Below are positions 27,925 to 59,618 of a stretch of 64,000 nt of DNA, in pieces. The translations under genes were made by a program, and so were the position numbers. Numbering within the stretch: the first letter of the stretch is position 1; the number at the start of each line of letters is the position of its first letter. This DNA is from Parietichytrium sp. I65-24A (Eukaryota > Sar > Bigyra > Thraustochytrida > Thraustochytriidae), in the NCBI GenBank assembly GCA_012862575.1, contig BLSF01000015.1:1-64000 (forward strand). The letters run 5' to 3'. Under the pieces are notes generated by a model. The model made no database searches, was not told where the DNA came from, and saw only the letters and a list, made by a program, of their open reading frames with translations.

Positions 27925-29700
27925 CTCCCATGCGTTCGGAAACGCCACTCCGTCTCTCTTTTTGTCTCTCTCTGTTTCTCTTTTTGTCTCTCTGTCTCTG
28001 TCTCAGTCTCTCTTTGGACACTTTTCACATCTTTCAACATCGCTTTTCGCATCCAAAATTAGGGAATAATCCTCGAGAGAATAATCGGAATTCGCAGAAC
28101 AATTCCCAGGGAAATTCCCTTCGCGAGTTGTTCGCAAAGTCCTTCTGGAAGCTCGTTTCTGTTCGTCCGAGAACCGCCGCCCTGTGGCCGCCTGAGGAAG
28201 AGAATGAAGAGGATGCAAAAAGTGCTGGTGAGACTCTGAGGGGAACTGCGGGGCTAGCGTCTTACAGTAGGAGTGATAGTGGAGGTGTTCGCCACTGTGA
28301 AGGTGAGTATTCCTCCAGTGAAGGACTTGTGAAAAGTCTAAAAGTCAAGAGTGCCTTTATTTTGGTACTCTTACTGTTCCTCCCGTGTCTGGTGGTAGCG
28401 TCGAGCCAACTTGTTTTATCAAAACCAGCATTCGCTACTGTTAACCGTAGGTGGGAAAAGCTGAATAGCGTATCAGCGAGAAACTTTCTCTGGGTGACAA
28501 GTTCCCCTCTCTTTGTGCGGGCGTTTGAAACAACATGCTGAGAGGTTGCTAGAGATGCTGAGAGGACATGCTGTGAGGAGAAGCCGTGAAGGGGGAGTTC
28601 TCCCCATGCTTGCAAGGGGGGGGAGGACTGGGAGAACTCAAGACTCTGAAGATGAGAAGAGGGGTGTGTTTTAGATTTCGTGATTGACATCAAGTATAGT
28701 CTGGAAAGAAAGTGATGTGAGGATAGTCTGCCTCACTCTGTGACTTTTCGTTGTTTCATCAAGTCTCTTTTGTTTCTCCTCTTCAATTTGAAAAATGAAT
28801 TAAACACTCTTTTCCTAGTTAGTAGACTATTACTATAAGCTTATAGTTTCTATAAATATACTTTTCTCTCTCTTACTCTCTCTCTCCGTCTCTCGGAGGT
28901 GTATCGGAGATACTCAGTGAGTGTCACAGTAGAAGCTTCGCCTCAGAAAGATTGGATAGATTGGTGCAGAAAGGGCTCCGCTTCCTACTGTAAATGTTAG
29001 GTCTCCCGTAATCAGACGCTCCTCACTGGTAGGCGCTTCCAGTCCTGCGGTGCACCTGTTTAGGAGTATATAGAGACCTTCTAACACTTCGGAGCTTTTC
29101 TTCGGATGGATGGATCCCCGAGCTTAGTCAACTGTCACCATAAACCGTAGGAGTGGCCGTCCAACGATTGCCTCTGAGATGGAACAGGAATCCCCTGACA
29201 CCTGATCTGTAAGGGGCTTCCACCGATTACCATAGAACTTGCTGTTTGGGCTTTCGGTATCAAGGATTGCACTAACCATGCCGCTACTACCACTCAAGCT
29301 TCCTGTTCTAATGTTTACAGTATCACTCCTGTACCCCCGAGGCTTAGTGCGCGCTAATCCACTCTACGAGCGTCCACACTGTACAAGCGAGAAGAGAGGC
29401 AAGTGAAGGAGGAAAGAGGAAAGAGGAAAGAGGAAGAAGAAACCGCCGAGGTGTCCTCGCGTACACTTATCCACACGTACGATCATCCGCGCCTCGCGTA
29501 AGTGCGGGGTCCCAGCAGCAACCGCCCTCAACCGACTCGCCTCGTTGCCCCTCCCGGCAGCGCTGCATCCCAGCTGCGGGGGACGTTCGCCACCTCCCGC
29601 TCTGCCTGCTCCGCCCGCTCTGCGTTGGTGCGGGGGACGATTCGCCCAGCTGCGGGGGACTGGGACTGGGACTCCTGGCCAGGTGTGGGGAGCGCGCGGT
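27925..29700. other. Intergenic region, divergent promoters
   Basis: 1.8 kb with a pyrimidine-rich (T/C)n stretch at 27948-28020, another at 28862-28897, and GGAAAGA repeats at 29402-29436. An open frame at ~28200-28541 encodes a hydrophobic stretch but lacks other support. Confidence 0.45.
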
Positions 29701-32700
29701 ATGGCGCAGGTGGAGGAGATGAAGGCGGAGAACGGGATGGAGGTGGACAGTGCAAAGTTTAAGATTGTGCTGTTTTATCAGTATGCGGATGTGTTGGAGG
29801 CCGATGGAGACGGGTCGACGGCGGAACCGGAGCATCTGAACGAGCTGGAGAGTTGGGTTCGGAGACGCTGCCAGGGTCTCGGACTGACGGGTCGCGTGGT
29901 GCTTTCCACGGAAGGAATCAATGGGAACCTCGCCAGCCGCGGGGAGGAAGGCGTCAATGCGTTCTGCAAGGACCTGCAGGCGCTCAAGCTGTTCCAAAAG
30001 TCCGACATTGACTTCAAGATGGACTACTCGGAGAACCCACCGTTTCCAGATTTGCACATTCAGGTGAAAAAGGAAATTTGCTCCACCGGGAGCACGATGC
30101 CGAAAAAATTGCTTGATGAAGGATATGGCGGAAAGCACTTGGAGCCGGAGGAGTTTCACAAGGTGCTCAAAGAGTACTGGGGAGCCGAGGCCGGCCAGAA
30201 GAGCGACGATCTCGTTGTTATTGACGTTCGCAACAATGTCGAGTTCAAGACCGGGCGATTTGCCGCTGGTGAAGGGAAGGAGGCTGTAAATCCGAGCACG
30301 AAAACATTTTCTAGGTGGGCGCCGGATTACGCCGACAAGGCAGCAGATGAGCTCAAGTCGAAGAAGGTGCTCATGTATTGCACTGGTGGCATTCGGTGCG
30401 AGAAAGCGTCGGCCTATCTTCGATCCATCGGGGTGGAGGATGTCAGCCAGCTGAAAGGCGGTATTCATAGATACCTGGAGAAATTCGGCTCGGACGGTTA
30501 CTTTCAGGGAAGCAATTTTGTTTTCGACTCCCGAACGCTTCAAACTCCCAGTGGTGCCAAGGTGGTAGGCAAGTGCCACGAGTGCTCTGCTCCGACCCAG
30601 ACTGTTAGTTGCGATAGATGTTGCGCCGTGTGTCGGGAGCCTGTACTTGTGTGCGATGACTGCCGCGTCAAGCTGTATGGCGTGTACTATTGCGACCTTC
30701 ACCAGGACTTGAAAGGGCTCTATGAGCCTTTTCTGGAGCGGTTCGATTTGCCCGAGCTCGAGAAACAAAAGGAAGGGTTGTTGAACCTTTTGGTTACCAA
30801 ATTCAAGGCCACCCCCCGTCGACGACCCGTCGGAAAGCAGATCAAGCGCATCGACGAGTGGATCGCTCGCAAACAGGAGCAGGCCAAGACCTCGCAAGAA
30901 ACCGGCAAGGAGATAAAAAAGTCAAAGTGGGGATCCAATCCACGGTGCAGATCCTGTGGCATGATCGGCCCGGAGGACTTGCTCCAAGCGATGGGCCGCT
31001 CGTTCACCGATGAGTCGGTCCTCTGTCGTGGAAACTGTGTCGGCTTTGTCCGTGAATCGTACGAGGACCCGCGAACCACCCTGGATGAGATGAACCACCC
31101 AGACTTTACCGCAGCGAGGAAATCTCAAAAGCGCAAAAGGACGCAAAGAAGTCAGCGTGAGTTTCACAAGCGGATGCGCGATGAGACCTCGCAAGAGTAC
31201 GAAAGTACGCGATACAACATTGTTGCATTCCCAGTCAACGAGGCCGACTTCAAGTCGGACAACATGCAAATGCTGCGGTGCGTGGTGCCGTACATGTTTC
31301 AGTTCCAGACACACGTGAAAAAGAGATGGTATGGCCGCTCGCTATTGGAGACCTATGTTGCCGAGTTTTCCGGGAACAAGCGCGAGTACTACCGCCAAGC
31401 TATAAACTTTGGCCTTATCCGCGTCAACAACGAAATAACGGATCCGAACCAGATCCTCAAGAATGGTGACCTAATCACAAACTGGGTTCACCGACATGAG
31501 CCCCCGGTGTTTTACGTCCCCGCGACAGACATGATTGTGCACGAATCGGAGCGCCTCCTGGTGATAGACAAACCAGCTTCGTTGACAATTCATCCATCTG
31601 GATCATTTCGTAGGAATTCAGTTACCTTCATTCTCGCTGTTGAGTGCGGTTACAAGCAACTCTACCCTGTGCACCGCTTGGACCGGTTTACATCTGGATT
31701 GCTCTTGATTGCAAAGGACGCAGAGTATGCAAAGCAGATCACTGACGCGATGGTGCGTAAAGTCTCTACCCCCAGTTCGGCCTCCTCGATGGCTGACCAG
31801 GACGAGTTCCACACCCACATTCAAAAGGCTTACCTGGCGAGGGTAAGCGGTCGATTCCCGTCGACTCGCAAGGAAATGGACGACCTTCTAGCGAAGAATG
31901 CTCTTTTGAAATCGCCGCCTGAAAACCTCACAGTCACACCATCGCTTCCATCAACTGACTCGGTGGGTTCGGAGGCCGATGTTCCCATGACTGCAAAGCT
32001 GTCTTCAGAAGAGGAAGCATACCTGGAGTCTGTCTCATTGCGTGCCCCCGGTTTCTATTTCGAGGACGGCGAGGACGCTAAAAAAGGGATGCTTGATCTC
32101 AGCTTAGCCTTGAACGAAAAGATGAAGAACAGCAGTGACAAACATTTTGTTTTGTCCTGGCCGATGCAACAAGTTTGCCAGCACACTGGGACATGGCGAT
32201 GCTACAATCCGAATGAACCATTGCCAAAGCAGTCAAGCACCGTTTATATGCAAGGTAGTCCGGAGCCCAAGTTCAGCATGACGCGCTTCCGCCATTTGGC
32301 TTATGACCCTGCAACGGACACGAGTCTGGTGCAGTGCGAACCTGTGACTGGAAGAACACACCAGCTTCGAGTGCACCTCGCGTTCTTGGGTCATCCTATC
32401 CTGCACGACCCGATTTATGGCGAAGGTGGTGATCTTTTTGCCGGTAAAACGGATCGCTCTGAGGATGGTTCCGACGGGGGCGCATTGGATGTAAAGACGA
32501 CCATTTCAAAGGACGAGCAAAATGACATAACCATCATGAATTCCCAATTCGACCAAGAGAAAATTACGCAACTGAAGGAGAGTGGAGATGTGGAAAGTCT
32601 CGCCAAAGCCCTGTGCGTGTCATGTAAAGAAGGCATGGACGTGGCTTTCAAGGAGGTTCAGATGCGGCGTAATGGTATCGATTTGCACGCCTACCGCTAC

Positions 32701-32781
32701 ATCGTAAATCTGGAAGACGGAACTGCAATTGACCATCACACTTCGCTCCCACACTTTGCCTCGACTTTCAGCCTCAAGTAA
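29701..32781 (+). CDS. Fusion of TrhO-like tRNA uridine hydroxylase (rhodanese) and RluA-family pseudouridine synthase
   Basis: 1026 aa from ATG 29701 (MAQVEEM). Residues ~18-125 match the N-terminal acylphosphatase-like domain of TrhO/TSTD2 ([13 protein letters not shown]). Residues ~160-275 are a rhodanese domain with the active-site loop [10 protein letters not shown], Cys227 and Cys233. A Cys-rich region (~295-345) follows, then another (NPRCRSCGM) at ~417. From ~540 comes a second enzyme. An S4-like segment (GLIRVNNE...[17 protein letters not shown]) is followed by a pseudouridine synthase with HRLDRFTSG (catalytic Asp661) and [17 protein letters not shown]. The second half is closest to Pus9/RIB2/RPUSD2 enzymes that act on tRNA position 32; TrhO acts at U34. 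Both active sites appear intact and the frame is uninterrupted. Confidence 0.93.
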
Positions 32782-33938: not shown

Positions 33939-35663
33939 ATGGTGGAGATGGACTCGGAGAAGATCGGAGCACCGGAGGAGGTGGGCGGTGCAGCTGCAGC
34001 AGCTGCCGCTGAGGCGCAGAAGGCGGAGGAGATGCAGGCGCTGGCGCAAATGGAAGGCGACTACGTGAGCCATTACTTTCATGTGGCCGGGAAGAAAGGG
34101 CTCGAGGAAGGGTTCGCGAAACCGGTGCTCACAATTGCGTGGCTGCTCTTCGAGAAGCCGCTCGACATCGAGACCGTTCGCAGGGATGTGATGGGCAAGC
34201 TCGTCCAGAAAGTGGAGCGGCTGCGGGCCAAAGCGGTGCTCCACAAGGGATGGACCTATTTTGAGGAGATACCGCTGGACCAGCTGGACCAGGAGTATCA
34301 TTTTCAGAAGGCCGGAAGCTTCGAGAACGAAAAGGAGTGGTCCGCGTTTCTAAATAAGCTGTCGAGCGAAGGCCTCGACTATGACAAGCCTTTGTGGAGG
34401 TATTTTCTGGTCGACCGGCACCCCTCTGGCAAGGCTGCCGTAATGATCGTGGCGGACCATGCTGAGGCGGACGGCGCGTGCCAAACGGTGGCTCTTCTCA
34501 AGCTGTGTGAGTCCGAAGGCACCAACCCAATGCTGTTGGGCGAGAAGAAAAGCCGCCACGTCACAAAGGGCGAAGAAGGAGCAAAGAAACCCAAGCAGGA
34601 CAAGGACGGCAAGCCGCGACGCCTGACAATGTACGAGCAAGCATTAGCTTTCGTTGATGGCCTCTCGAACCCTATCATAGAGCAAATCACCCCCGGTGAC
34701 CCTGACAACGCTCTAAAGGTGAAGAAATACGAATATCCCCAGGAATGGTCAGTTGCTACGTCGCGGCTGGAGGACAGGATGGACGTGCAGCTCTTTAAAG
34801 ACATCAAGGAACGGGTGCCAGGCACTACCGTCAATGATGTCATGCTCGCGGTTACGGCGCTTTCCATCAAAGAGTACTTCAAGTCCATTGACGACGAGTT
34901 TATGGACACTGGGTACGACATCACCGCCACGTTCCCCGTGAACATTAGGCCCAAAGGGGTGGACTATCTTTCAAAGGAGTGGTTTGGAAATCGCGTTGTC
35001 ATGGAGGCTATGACCTTTCCGATGCACAAGTCCAGGCTGGAGACACTGACCCATTTCCGCGACGAAGTTCGCTCCCTAAAGGCGTCCCCAGAAATTTTGG
35101 TCCGCGATTATCTCACTTCGGCGCTCGGCTTCATGCCCAACTCTGTTCTCGTGCCCCTCGCTGCGGAGGCAGGGTCCGGATATTCCATCATGATTTCGAA
35201 CTTGATTTTCAACTTCGAGACTTTGAATTGCTTCGGACAGGAAATCCTCGACGCAAGCTTCATCGTGCTGTCCCCTCTCGGCTATTACTCCGGAATGGCC
35301 ACCTACAAGGATAAGGTTTCTTGCTCCATCGTGGTCGGGAATAACACGAGCACGGACCCACAAAAGCTATTGGCCATGTACAACAGCGAGCTCAAGGCTC
35401 TGCACAAGGAAGTAATGGCAACTCCCGTCAGAAAGCTTAAGAAGCTCGACCGGCCAAAGCAGCCGCCTGGGCCGCTCATGTTTTTGGCGATTATCGCCCT
35501 CGCAGCAGCCCTTGTCTTGCGGGATCAATTCTGGTTCGCGGTAGCCCTCGTCGTAATCTTCCTCTCCTTCGCATTCGTCCGCTTCAAGGACATTTACAAG
35601 AGCAACACCTCGAACATCGAACAGCCTCAAGCCAATGGGGACAAGCGAACCAAAGAAGACTAG
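33939..35663 (+). CDS. Wax ester synthase / diacylglycerol acyltransferase (WS/DGAT, WSD) family protein
   Basis: Acyl-CoA-dependent transferase of the condensation superfamily, making wax esters or triacylglycerol. 574 aa from ATG 33939 (MVEMDSE). The family active-site motif HHxxxDG reads DHAEADG at residues 173-179; the second, catalytic His (174) is kept while the first is Asp. NDVMLAVTALSIKEYF (~residues 299-314), FPVNIRP and WFGNRV are WSD-typical. A C-terminal DUF1298-like region follows, with YSIMISNLIF and LGYYSGMATYKDKVSCSIVVG. Two membrane spans at residues ~509-548 close the protein, suggesting ER anchoring from the C-terminus. The N-terminus is Ala/Glu-rich. Substrate preference cannot be read from sequence. 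Confidence 0.88.
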   Translation: MVEMDSEKIGAPEEVGGAAAAAAAEAQKAEEMQALAQMEGDYVSHYFHVAGKKGLEEGFAKPVLTIAWLLFEKPLDIETVRRDVMGKLVQKVERLRAKAVLHKGWTYFEEIPLDQLDQEYHFQKAGSFENEKEWSAFLNKLSSEGLDYDKPLWRYFLVDRHPSGKAAVMIVADHAEADGACQTVALLKLCESEGTNPMLLGEKKSRHVTKGEEGAKKPKQDKDGKPRRLTMYEQALAFVDGLSNPIIEQITPGDPDNALKVKKYEYPQEWSVATSRLEDRMDVQLFKDIKERVPGTTVNDVMLAVTALSIKEYFKSIDDEFMDTGYDITATFPVNIRPKGVDYLSKEWFGNRVVMEAMTFPMHKSRLETLTHFRDEVRSLKASPEILVRDYLTSALGFMPNSVLVPLAAEAGSGYSIMISNLIFNFETLNCFGQEILDASFIVLSPLGYYSGMATYKDKVSCSIVVGNNTSTDPQKLLAMYNSELKALHKEVMATPVRKLKKLDRPKQPPGPLMFLAIIALAAALVLRDQFWFAVALVVIFLSFAFVRFKDIYKSNTSNIEQPQANGDKRTKED

Positions 35664-45303: not shown

Positions 45304-46380
45304 CTAACACTTTTGGAGTCGCGCAGGGTCCGGCCTCGCATCGAAGACCCCTGCCGCCGCGGCCTCGTCCACGTTCACCGTCTGCAGCACCACGTCATTG
45401 AACGCCCTCTCCACGTCCTGTCTCGTCGCCATCTCGCTGTCCCCGACAACGTTTGCGCCGATTCCTCGCACCCTGATGTACGGGAGCACGTTCGCTGCGC
45501 ACTTGCAGTCCTCGGGGGGCGCGAGGGACCTATTAAAGTACGCCACCAGCCGATTGCCTATCACCGTCACTTCCCGCAGCAGCTGCGGGGACCAATTGGC
45601 CCACAGGACGTTGTTGTACAGCGGGAGCGGGCAGTGCGGCATGAAGAAGAGCGTGGCCGCGGCGCGCTGCTCCTGCTGCAACAACTGTTGTTGCTGCTGT
45701 TGTTGTTGTTGTTGTTGTTGTTGTTGCTGCTGCTGCTGCTGGTGGTCGCCCACGCAGTGCGCCGTCCCCGCAGCGTTGTCCGCGAGGACGGCGAAGCCCA
45801 TCTGCTCGAGTACGCTTCGGTCCGCCGCCGTAAAGTCCGGGTCGAACGCCTCGAGCACAGCATTGCGTTCCGCGAGCGCCTCCACCAGGTGCGACAACAG
45901 GCCCAGCTGCAGCTGCGCGCTGCGCGTGGAGAGACGGCCCAGTCCCAGACACACCACGCGCGAGAACCGCGCGCCACATTCACCTTGACTTTGACCTTGA
46001 ACGGCGGAGCAGATGTCGCCGACCAGATGCGCCGCGTCTCCTCCGGCGGCGAAGCGCGCGCGGAGTTTCGGGAACGTTCGCGCGAGCCACTCCTCGGGCG
46101 ACGCGATGGCGTCCCCGTGTCCGCTCTGCGCCGCGAGACGAGCGAGACGACCGGCTGCGGGGGCGATGGGAGAGGGATTGGGCAGCGCCATGGAGGAGGA
46201 TGCGGCGGATGGCGTGGCGAGGAAGCGATTGTGGGACGAGGAGGGCGTGCGCGTGTGCGCGTGGGACGCGTGGGACGCGTGGGACGTTTGGGACGACGAG
46301 GAGGATGGGACGCTGCTGGGACGCGCGCGGCGCCGGTGTTTGCGGACCACGAGAGTGAAGCCATCGTCCGCGTCGGCCAT
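45304..46380 (-). CDS. SRR1-like protein
   Basis: 358 aa from the ATG at 46380 (MADADDGF) to the stop at 45304. SRR1 proteins are linked to phytochrome and clock signalling in plants and have related, poorly understood forms in animals and fungi. SRR1 hallmarks: CLGLGRLSTRSAQLQLGLL (residues ~145-163), FDPDFTAADRSVLEQMGF, a hydrophobic FFMPHCPLPLYNNVLWANW and VTVIGNRLVAYFN. A polyglutamine run of about 23 residues (~213-236, mixed CAG/CAA) is inserted just before the HCPLPLY motif, inside the domain. The N-terminus is low-complexity (Ser/His/Ala) with an arginine patch. A long + strand open frame overlapping it is a shadow. Confidence 0.88.
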   Translation of the reverse strand: MADADDGFTLVVRKHRRRARPSSVPSSSSSQTSHASHASHAHTRTPSSSHNRFLATPSAASSSMALPNPSPIAPAAGRLARLAAQSGHGDAIASPEEWLARTFPKLRARFAAGGDAAHLVGDICSAVQGQSQGECGARFSRVVCLGLGRLSTRSAQLQLGLLSHLVEALAERNAVLEAFDPDFTAADRSVLEQMGFAVLADNAAGTAHCVGDHQQQQQQQQQQQQQQQQQQQLLQQEQRAAATLFFMPHCPLPLYNNVLWANWSPQLLREVTVIGNRLVAYFNRSLAPPEDCKCAANVLPYIRVRGIGANVVGDSEMATRQDVERAFNDVVLQTVNVDEAAAAGVFDARPDPARLQKC

Positions 46381-57530: not shown

Positions 57531-59618
57531 ATGAGCACGGAGTGGGCATACGATGAGGCGCTTGCGAAAGCGGCGCTAGGCGAGGTGCTGGAAGTGTTAG
57601 CTCGCGTGCGGCTTGGCGTGGAGGAGACTAGTATCGACTGCGATGGAAATGAAGAATGCGGGGACGCGAGGAATGAGAGCGATGAGAGCGGCGGCCAGAA
57701 TGCGACTGCAGAGGAAGGACGCAGATACGAGCGCGGGGCAGAGATCGGGCTGGCATCGACGAGGAAAGACGGGGCGTGGACGGAAAAGGTGGGAAGCGCG
57801 CATATGAGGACCATGCACCAGGGCCGATGGGAGCTTGCTTGCGAAGATGTTCGAGTAGTGCTGGGCGAAGAGTGCGCGAAGGCTGTCGAGGGTGCGGCGA
57901 AAGCGAGGCTGGTCAGGGCTCTGGCGCTCCGCGAAAACTTGATCAATATGAAAAAGGTTTATTTGCATTTGTACAAACAAGGGCTGCAACTGGAGGAAGA
58001 GCTGGCTCAGTTCACGACGTTGTTTTTCTGGGACGGGAAGGAGTGGTCACAATATTTGATAGCCAAGCAACTCAAGCGAGACGATGAGCCTCCGCCAAAC
58101 CAGGCTATTGAAGTCTACACAGACTGCTCTCACGCGCTCCAGCAGTGCAAGGGCCTCACCCTCGCGCTGCTCACCGCTCGGGAATTCACCAAGCGGGTTT
58201 GCTGCGTCCCACGCCACATTTTGCGCCGATCGGAGATCTCCACGCGCAATATTCCGTACAGTTTTGGCTACTACTACGCCCTGAAAGAGATGAAGAGCAC
58301 TTACGCTCGGTATTTTGGCGAGGAGTGGGCCAACGTGGACTTGGGCAAGCATTTCTACACCATAGCAGAGGAGGACGTCCCGGACCTGACGGGCGGTGAT
58401 GATGAGGCCATTGCCGAGTTTGAATCATTTATTGATGACATTCAAAAAGAGTGCGGCTTCGATCACGAAGTCCGGTACTTTATTAAGCGCGTTTTTATCG
58501 CTAGAGGCATGTCCAAGGCAATTCGGATTGGTGTAGAAGCAAGGAGGTTACAAGAAGCATGCGAATTGTCGTCCAAGACGTTGGCGCATTTGCAGAAAAT
58601 GCTGGAGGAGCGTTTTGTCCAAGACGAGGTAAACAACTACTTTGCGCGGAAGCCTATGGTGATGGTGAAGAACATAAAGCTCGTGGTGGACGAGCTCGCA
58701 GTGTGGCTTGGCAAGATTCGAAGCGAGCCGGAGAGGATCTGGTTCAGCGCCGGAGAATGGGTCGATGGTGGAAGCGGAATCGTGATGCCGACAACCTTCG
58801 GTGTCGTCCGAGGCGCATTCCAGGAAATGAGGACCGTTATCGACAAGCACAGACCCTTGCTCCTCTCTCGCTTGAGGGCCCGGGATGAATACTACCTGCC
58901 ACTGATCACGGGGAAGCTAAAGTGCGCAAAGTGCAAGGAGTCGTTTTCGAGAGCTTTTGTGAAACCGCAAGGCTTGTGCGTGTTTTGCGAAATGAGCATT
59001 CGCGAGGCCGCAAAAGAAGCTTTGTTGCTTGCTGGTGGAGCGGACGAAGTGGACTTGCTCCAGTGCCCTATCCGCTTGCGTTGCAAGACCACCAAGCACC
59101 CCACCATGTGCCCGCACTCGCTCAAGTGCATTGTGTGCGACCTGTGGGGTTGCGAGGCTTGTTCCGTGCAGCGTTTCGGCGGAGAAGACACGCTCACCTT
59201 CATACAAGATTTGCAACCAACTGTTCTCTTCTTAGACTTTGACCGCACTTTGGCGAGTACCAAGAATGGCTCGAGTCCGCTGCAAACGCGGGAGGGAATG
59301 GGGCACACTCTGGACCCCCACCTCAAGGAAGCCGCCTTAGAAGTTAGAAACACCCACGTCGTGACTCGTAACGGCCACGCAGAGGACATTCGCACGTTCC
59401 TCGCTTCGCACGGACTCGGGCACGTCCAAGTGCACAGCTTGAGAAGGTTGAAGGAGTTCAACTCCAAAATAGAAATCATGTCAACTCTTATGGGGCCCAG
59501 CGACCGCGGAGTATTCGTCGACGACAGCTCTCAGGAGCTCATCGAGCCAGCGCTTCGGACCTTTTTGAAAAACAATCCGGGGCGCCTGTCCACTATCTTG
59601 TTTTCGAAAACCTCCTGA
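57531..59618 (+). CDS. Large HAD-superfamily protein with Cys clusters
   Basis: 695 aa from ATG 57531 (MSTEWAY); earlier codons lack an ATG and overlap repeats. Residues 1-~460 are helical with no family I recognise (RYFIKRVFIARGMSKAIRIGVEARRL near ~325-350). Two Cys/His clusters follow: CAKC...CVFC (~465-485) and a longer C...C..H..C..C.C...C run (~515-545) compatible with zinc binding. The C-terminal ~135 residues are a small HAD phosphatase-like fold. Motif I is LDFDRT (Asp569, Asp571), motif II is VVTRN (Thr612), motif IV is VFVDDSS (Asp664, Asp665); a motif III Lys is plausible around ~638-645. Substrate unknown. The combination of domains is not one I know. Confidence 0.8.
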   Translation: MSTEWAYDEALAKAALGEVLEVLARVRLGVEETSIDCDGNEECGDARNESDESGGQNATAEEGRRYERGAEIGLASTRKDGAWTEKVGSAHMRTMHQGRWELACEDVRVVLGEECAKAVEGAAKARLVRALALRENLINMKKVYLHLYKQGLQLEEELAQFTTLFFWDGKEWSQYLIAKQLKRDDEPPPNQAIEVYTDCSHALQQCKGLTLALLTAREFTKRVCCVPRHILRRSEISTRNIPYSFGYYYALKEMKSTYARYFGEEWANVDLGKHFYTIAEEDVPDLTGGDDEAIAEFESFIDDIQKECGFDHEVRYFIKRVFIARGMSKAIRIGVEARRLQEACELSSKTLAHLQKMLEERFVQDEVNNYFARKPMVMVKNIKLVVDELAVWLGKIRSEPERIWFSAGEWVDGGSGIVMPTTFGVVRGAFQEMRTVIDKHRPLLLSRLRARDEYYLPLITGKLKCAKCKESFSRAFVKPQGLCVFCEMSIREAAKEALLLAGGADEVDLLQCPIRLRCKTTKHPTMCPHSLKCIVCDLWGCEACSVQRFGGEDTLTFIQDLQPTVLFLDFDRTLASTKNGSSPLQTREGMGHTLDPHLKEAALEVRNTHVVTRNGHAEDIRTFLASHGLGHVQVHSLRRLKEFNSKIEIMSTLMGPSDRGVFVDDSSQELIEPALRTFLKNNPGRLSTILFSKTS

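Follow-up and report, generated by a model that had tools for sequence, protein, structure and literature searches.

Two families of RNA-modifying enzymes supply the closest described relatives of a gene in the thraustochytrid Parietichytrium sp. I65-24A, which lies in the first 64,000 nucleotides of contig BLSF01000015.1 (assembly GCA_012862575.1; this whole stretch is called the window below). The first half of its predicted product shares the domain order UPF0176_N-Rhodanese-Rhodanese_C, the CTGGIRC loop and the fold with TrhO (YceA/YbfQ), an O2-dependent tRNA U34 hydroxylase, and with eukaryotic TSTD2; the second half shares an RluA-family core and catalytic Asp with RPUSD2 and with yeast Pus8 (Rib2) and Pus9, which make pseudouridine (Psi) at tRNA positions 31/32. 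The fusion differs from known TrhO in a Gln at the equivalent of Escherichia coli K112 and in its pseudouridine synthase partner, and from RPUSD2, Pus8 and Pus9 in a long insert in the core and a TrhO partner at the N-terminus. In Rib2, Pus8 is joined to a deaminase, whereas the partner here is TrhO. Other eukaryotic relatives of TrhO include the plant rhodaneses STR6 and STR7, for which the relevant passages of a coconut study (PMC10298058) name no pseudouridine synthase partner.

A single frame holds both folds with their catalytic residues, and a gene joining CmoA to CmoB lies in the same genome. We read the fusion as a two-headed enzyme of the tRNA anticodon loop that makes Psi31/32 together with 5-hydroxyuridine at position 34 (ho5U34), the latter feeding CmoA-CmoB, and we give this reading a probability of roughly 0.4. 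The RPUSD2-like C-terminal half would turn U31/U32 into pseudouridine by way of Asp661, and the TrhO half would hydroxylate the wobble uridine U34 to ho5U34 with O2 and the Cys227 loop; the CmoA-CmoB protein of the host would then convert ho5U34 to uridine 5-oxyacetic acid (cmo5U34). Joined in this way, the halves could make both modifications of one loop each time a tRNA is bound; a grip on tRNA that the TrhO half, with Gln121, has partly lost may come from the fused synthase. The sites, their order and the sharing of one tRNA by both halves are what we infer. The fuller version is more doubtful: in it the host runs the bacterial ho5U34-to-cmo5U34 pathway with TrhO-RPUSD2-type and CmoA-CmoB fusions, formation of Psi31/32 is coupled to wobble hydroxylation, and tRNA binding passes in part to the synthase half.

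One frame with two folds

The original prediction of one uninterrupted frame was borne out. Reading the open frames of the window places an ATG at 29701 and a stop at 32779-32781, with 1026 residues and no internal stop between them, inside a stop-to-stop frame of 1124 codons; the TrhO-type half occupies approximately residues 1-400, and the RluA-type pseudouridine synthase half, with catalytic Asp661, approximately 530-1026. Codon bias was scanned in 150-base segments, with training on 12 other long open reading frames (ORFs) of the window and comparison of all six frames. The frame of the fusion ranks best in every segment starting at residues -6 to 244 and 319 to 969, the second of these stretches covering the entire linker; it is not top in the segments starting at 269, 294, 994 and 1019. 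Upstream, positions 29530-29679 score negatively in the fusion frame, as expected if the gene starts at ATG 29701. Coding signal throughout the linker speaks against a pair of separate genes and against a large intron in frame; two mRNAs or an in-frame intron appear unlikely. The reading of the whole gene as an annotation artefact, made of two neighboring genes that happen to share a frame or of coding parts around an in-frame intron in the linker, is very improbable given 1124 open codons and an unbroken signal.

Pfam, NCBIfam, alignments and fold matches agree with the families first assigned to both halves and with the integrity of their catalytic residues, and CTGGIRC (C227-C233) and HRLD (ending at D661) lie where they had been placed. 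The TrhO half scores 184 bits against the cut-off of 170 for the TrhO equivalog NF001133 (NCBIfam). A model of residues 1-482, built with 28 bacterial TrhO rows, has a mean predicted local distance difference test score (pLDDT) of 72, with 159 of 482 residues at 90 or above and 98 below 50; its best matches in the PDB are 9j5o (Bacillus subtilis TrhO with tRNA(Ala)) and Legionella 4f67, and the first of these (E 1.5e-22, template modelling (TM) score by target 0.75) identifies the TrhO fold. In E. coli TrhO, residues C200, T201, G203 and R205 are reported to be essential, and G202 and C206 to be dispensable (PMC6599085). Taking the K-12 protein as the reference, the four essential residues correspond to C227, T228, G230 and R232, all of which are kept. 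Of the two cysteines first singled out, Cys227 is thus the essential one, while Cys233 is the equivalent of dispensable C206. Since the bacterial rows were retrieved by the pattern [YF]CTGGIRC, agreement at that motif was not counted as evidence; the cysteines of the tail (C292, C295, C318 and C321) are kept in 26-27 of 28 bacterial TrhO rows.

Pseudouridine synthases need no sulfur for their reaction, which speaks against a reading in which the rhodanese half is no hydroxylase, but carries sulfur or senses redox state so as to regulate or assist the synthase. The presence of UPF0176_N, the Cys-rich tail of TrhO and CmoA-CmoB in the genome point the same way, and we consider such a role unlikely; what favors it is the loop itself, a rhodanese loop with two cysteines, and the human relative TSTD2, described as having no known function as of 2023 and no demonstrated activity (PMC10135228).

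In the synthase half, PF00849 (PseudoU_synth_2) matches with 87.1 bits (cut-off 26.8), its match being divided in two by a long insert; this insert of about 120 residues separates the catalytic Asp motif from GRTHQLRVH. K624, R659-L660-D661 and Y711 are as in all 19 relatives from viral contigs, and the Lys, Asp and Tyr also agree with E. coli RluA, RluC, RluD and TruC, to which identity is 25-29%; 20 columns are invariant across the synthase half, these four enzymes and the host sequence C22. The 19 RluA-type rows were retrieved by [TQ]GRxHQ[LI]R[VRL]H, and agreement at GRTHQLRVH was not counted. A model of residues 406-1026 is confident in the core only (mean pLDDT 62; 119 of 621 residues at 90 or above, 275 below 50), and RluD, RluC and RluA are among its top matches in the PDB (TM score by target between 0.51 and 0.74), human RPUSD1 and RPUSD4 ranking lower.

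The halves were modeled separately, and the models say nothing on their relative placement; an alignment that combined the relatives of both halves was not used, its summary indicating that RluA rows had seemingly been set over the TrhO half. Linker residues are mostly of low confidence in both models. A K/R-rich stretch lies in the linker near residues 473-493, and at window positions 30940-31050 a CRSCG...CRGNC pattern, poorly modeled, is predicted to be possibly a small zinc site. No targeting peptide is evident by eye, and the protein is probably cytosolic or nuclear.

The same architecture was sought in several collections. From at least 590 candidate bacterial TrhO loci, 80 were kept; both halves occur in one ORF in none of the 80, an RluA-type gene lies in the flanks (up to 4 kb) of one (L048), and in the whole genomes of 20 of them the two halves match separate places in every case. 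Viral contigs of IMG/VR gave no candidates for either half alone when searched with a small number of exact peptide patterns; when the synthase alignment served as query, they yielded 24 RluA-type loci, none with a TrhO half, and a scan for VHRHEPPV found seven loci, none with a tblastn match to the fusion protein at E 0.01. These scans brought up no giant-virus or stray eukaryotic copies. Literature searches on TrhO, TSTD2, RPUSD2, Pus8/Pus9 and UPF0176 met no description of a TrhO-pseudouridine synthase fusion; this gene, likewise the CmoA-CmoB gene, may be known from annotation already or be common in some eukaryotic group.

Recent bacterial origin of the synthase half is not indicated: no frame in 120 Pseudomonadota genomes, a set without a positive control, matches it at E 1e-15, and the best match in 20 other bacterial genomes is 41 bits. 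Within the host assembly (42.5 Mb, 172 contigs), gene searches were made exon by exon and the counts are lower bounds. Profile searches found at least six PF00849 loci and at least five genes with PF17773, namely the fusion and those labeled C37, C19, C9 and C41. A search with the full protein brought up no second gene like the synthase half, the best other match to that half being 25 bits. All four others share CTGGIRC with the fused half and E. coli TrhO, and a scan of their frames found no synthase domain. The fusion thus seems to be the only host gene of its synthase type, yet one of five TrhO genes.

A CmoA-CmoB gene and a predicted wobble pathway

Should the host make ho5U34, CmoA-CmoB, which joins the two enzymes that follow TrhO on the way to cmo5U34 in bacteria, is its predicted consumer. 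The CmoB part of the joined frame scores 321.1 bits with TIGR00452 (cut-off 275), and the CmoA part 190.8 bits with TIGR00740 (cut-off 193.3), at 38% identity to E. coli CmoA. In CmoB, K91, Y200 and R315 are described as holding the carboxymethyl group of carboxy-S-adenosylmethionine (PMC10491745), and alignment to the E. coli protein finds the equivalents of all three conserved. HEAT and TRIP4 domains exceed their cut-offs in neighboring frames of the same contig, C25, where a kinase domain falls slightly short of its own; bacterial contamination is therefore unlikely. The first ATG of the CmoA-CmoB frame is residue 60; a hydrophobic stretch after it, judged by eye, may be a membrane anchor.

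A profile search of the host genome found no match to the U32 peptidase family (TrhP), leaving TrhO-type genes as the only known source of ho5U found in the host, and from these genes and the CmoA-CmoB gene it is predicted that this eukaryote makes both ho5U34 and cmo5U34. Sakai et al. (2019) took TrhO homologues in vertebrates and other eukaryotes to suggest modification of the 5-hydroxyuridine-derived (xo5U) type there (PMC6599085), and a paper from 2023 describes derivatives of 5-hydroxyuridine as specific to tRNA of bacteria (PMC10516636). With its five TrhO genes and its TrhO-synthase and CmoA-CmoB fusions, the host is a concrete eukaryote in which to seek ho5U and cmo5U; the TrhO-synthase fusion links a eukaryotic TrhO relative to a type of enzyme that acts on the tRNA anticodon loop, and the use of a wobble decoding chemistry thought bacterial becomes directly testable in the host.

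For comparison, CmoA/CmoB matches occur in 38 of 100 Pseudomonadota genomes, and a CmoA-CmoB fusion was confirmed in none of the 100. Four candidates picked out by open-frame length (G035, G086, G088 and G094) were rejected, each having at least one stop between the two genes. Literature searches, one of them returning mainly irrelevant papers, met no description of eukaryotic CmoA-CmoB.

Specificity of the two halves

A number of results weigh against the two-headed reading. In E. coli TrhO, K112 and R114 are basic residues of the sheet that faces tRNA; the K112A variant gives scarcely any rescue, and R114A gives none (PMC6599085). The position of K112 is Gln121 in the fused half, where 79 of 80 bacterial rows have K/R and one has Ala; the position of R114 is Lys123, as K/R in all 80, so that one of the two basic residues is retained (in the smaller alignment, both positions are K/R in 28 of 28 bacterial rows). 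Gln121 is the main result against a simple transfer of function to the fused TrhO half. The host's other TrhO genes differ among themselves at these two positions, with R and K in C41, K and R in C19, R and V in C37, and R and C in C9; C41 and C19, which keep both basic residues, are better candidates for the U34 hydroxylase than the fused half. Nor does the equivalog profile discriminate: C37, C19, C9 (by its second exon alone) and C41 (334.5 bits) all exceed the NF001133 cut-off, as the fused half does.

A tree of 86 rows (80 bacterial, five from the host, and E. coli) places the fused half with the divergent host copies C37 and C9 (100/94) on long branches. The tree tool warns of joined long branches (C37 with C9), and the wider position of the group that includes the fused half is unsupported. 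By the same tree C41 joins five gammaproteobacterial TrhO rows (99/97) and C19 joins the E. coli type (100/99).

With two other host copies that have both basic residues, the fused copy need not be the U34 hydroxylase. A close second to the two-headed enzyme, from which the data separate it weakly, is therefore a reading in which the synthase half is a working RPUSD2 orthologue, the TrhO half has diverged to another uridine or RNA, or to tRNA binding only, and ho5U34 comes from C41 and C19. Gln121 favors it, and so do the clade shared with C37 and C9, whose V and C stand where every bacterial row has K/R, and the placement and score of C41. Retention of the essential loop residues and of the Cys-rich tail in the fused half argues the other way, as does the match of its fold to the TrhO-tRNA complex 9j5o. 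The original interpretation is supported in part. The claim that this half is a U34 hydroxylase is made less sure by Gln121 and by the four other TrhO genes; the xo5U pathway itself gains support from CmoA-CmoB in the genome.

The pathway as a whole meets two further objections. Relatives of CmoA/CmoB are described as serving also in 3-thiaglutamate synthesis (PMC10491745), and a nucleoside survey gives cmo5U as absent from Arabidopsis, Populus, Saccharomyces cerevisiae and calf liver (PMC2956550); the pathway is thus no general eukaryotic trait.

For the two-headed enzyme, the synthase half must also act on the anticodon loop. It looks RPUSD2/Pus9-like by what we take to be the marks of that type (HRHEPPV before the core, a stretch after motif I and C-terminal CxxC...LHA); its putative assignment to RPUSD2 is drawn from these motifs. 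The profile TIGR00005 (rluA_subfam) was narrowly missed, at 183.1 bits in two stretches against a cut-off of 192.7. In the PDB, the rRNA enzyme RluC is nearest by sequence, followed by an RluD-type enzyme, RluA and RluD, and these neighbors favor action on rRNA, mRNA or another RNA in place of the tRNA anticodon loop; the putative RPUSD2/Pus9 motifs HRHEPP and CxxC...LHA argue against this. Members of the E. coli RluA family are reported to act on rRNA as well as tRNA, which also favors such a target, and RPUSD2 is reported to have lost its rRNA activity, which does not (PMC12716993). We regard another RNA target as quite unlikely.

Human RPUSD2 is described as forming Psi31-32 in tRNAs of cytosol and mitochondria alike, and also Psi34 in tRNA-Ile(UAU) (PMC12716993), and by analogy Psi at 31/32 is plausible for the synthase half. 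Yeast Pus8 and Pus9 are NRLD types (PMC8910892), an active-site variant absent from the synthase half, which carries HRLD; "RPUSD2-like" is therefore a better label than the "Pus9-type" of the original prediction.

Features of the window and of the host genome

Table 1. Features of the fusion gene (window positions) and related genes elsewhere in the host genome
Feature	Location	Strand	Basis and remarks
Whole fusion gene	29701..32781	+	Single ORF, 1026 residues
UPF0176_N acylphosphatase-like domain, residues 21-126	29761..30078	+	Pfam PF17773, 61 bits (cut-off 26.2)
Q121-V122-K123, positions of E. coli TrhO K112 and R114	30061..30069	+	Alignment
Rhodanese domain, residues 166-260	30196..30480	+	Pfam PF00581, 35.2 bits (cut-off 22.2)
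CTGGIRC active-site loop, residues 227-233	30379..30399	+	Alignment to E. coli TrhO
Rhodanese_C, Cys-rich tail, residues 269-331	30505..30693	+	Pfam PF12368, 40 bits (cut-off 26.9)
Linker, approximately residues 401-530	30901..31290	+	Coding signal, no Pfam match
S4-like RNA-binding segment, residues 560-592	31378..31476	+	Pfam PF01479, 18.6 bits, under cut-off 22.8
Synthase core part 1, residues 619-716, HRLD with Asp661 (codon 31681-31683)	31555..31848	+	Pfam PF00849
Long insert in core, approximately residues 717-838	31849..32214	+	Mostly missing from four E. coli relatives (alignment)
Synthase core part 2, approximately residues 839-909, GRTHQLRVH	32215..32427	+	Profile match and alignment
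TrhO gene C37	C37:7503-8432		PF17773
TrhO gene C19	C19:553292-554155		PF17773; N-terminus looks mitochondrial by eye
TrhO gene C9	C9:125416-126440		PF17773 in two places, likely two exons (likely intron)
TrhO gene C41	C41:354373-355056		PF17773
CmoA-CmoB in one 710-residue frame, minus strand	C25:205938-208067 (L143:2439-4568)		TIGR00740 and TIGR00452

The size of 42.5 Mb, the likely intron of C9 and eukaryotic-type genes, which include ANAPC2, RPA1 and a mitochondrial carrier, mark the host as a eukaryote; a profile search for psbA-type sequences (PF00124) found no match in its genome. Downstream of the fusion gene, at 33939-35663, lies a gene whose product has wax ester synthase/diacylglycerol acyltransferase domains and, by eye, hydrophobic segments near its C-terminal end. 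At window positions 45304-46380, open frames on both strands contain a long poly-Gln/poly-Leu run. A frame of 695 residues at 57531-59618 has, by eye, Cys-rich motifs and a phosphatase-like FLDFDRTLAST, with no Pfam match at E 0.001.

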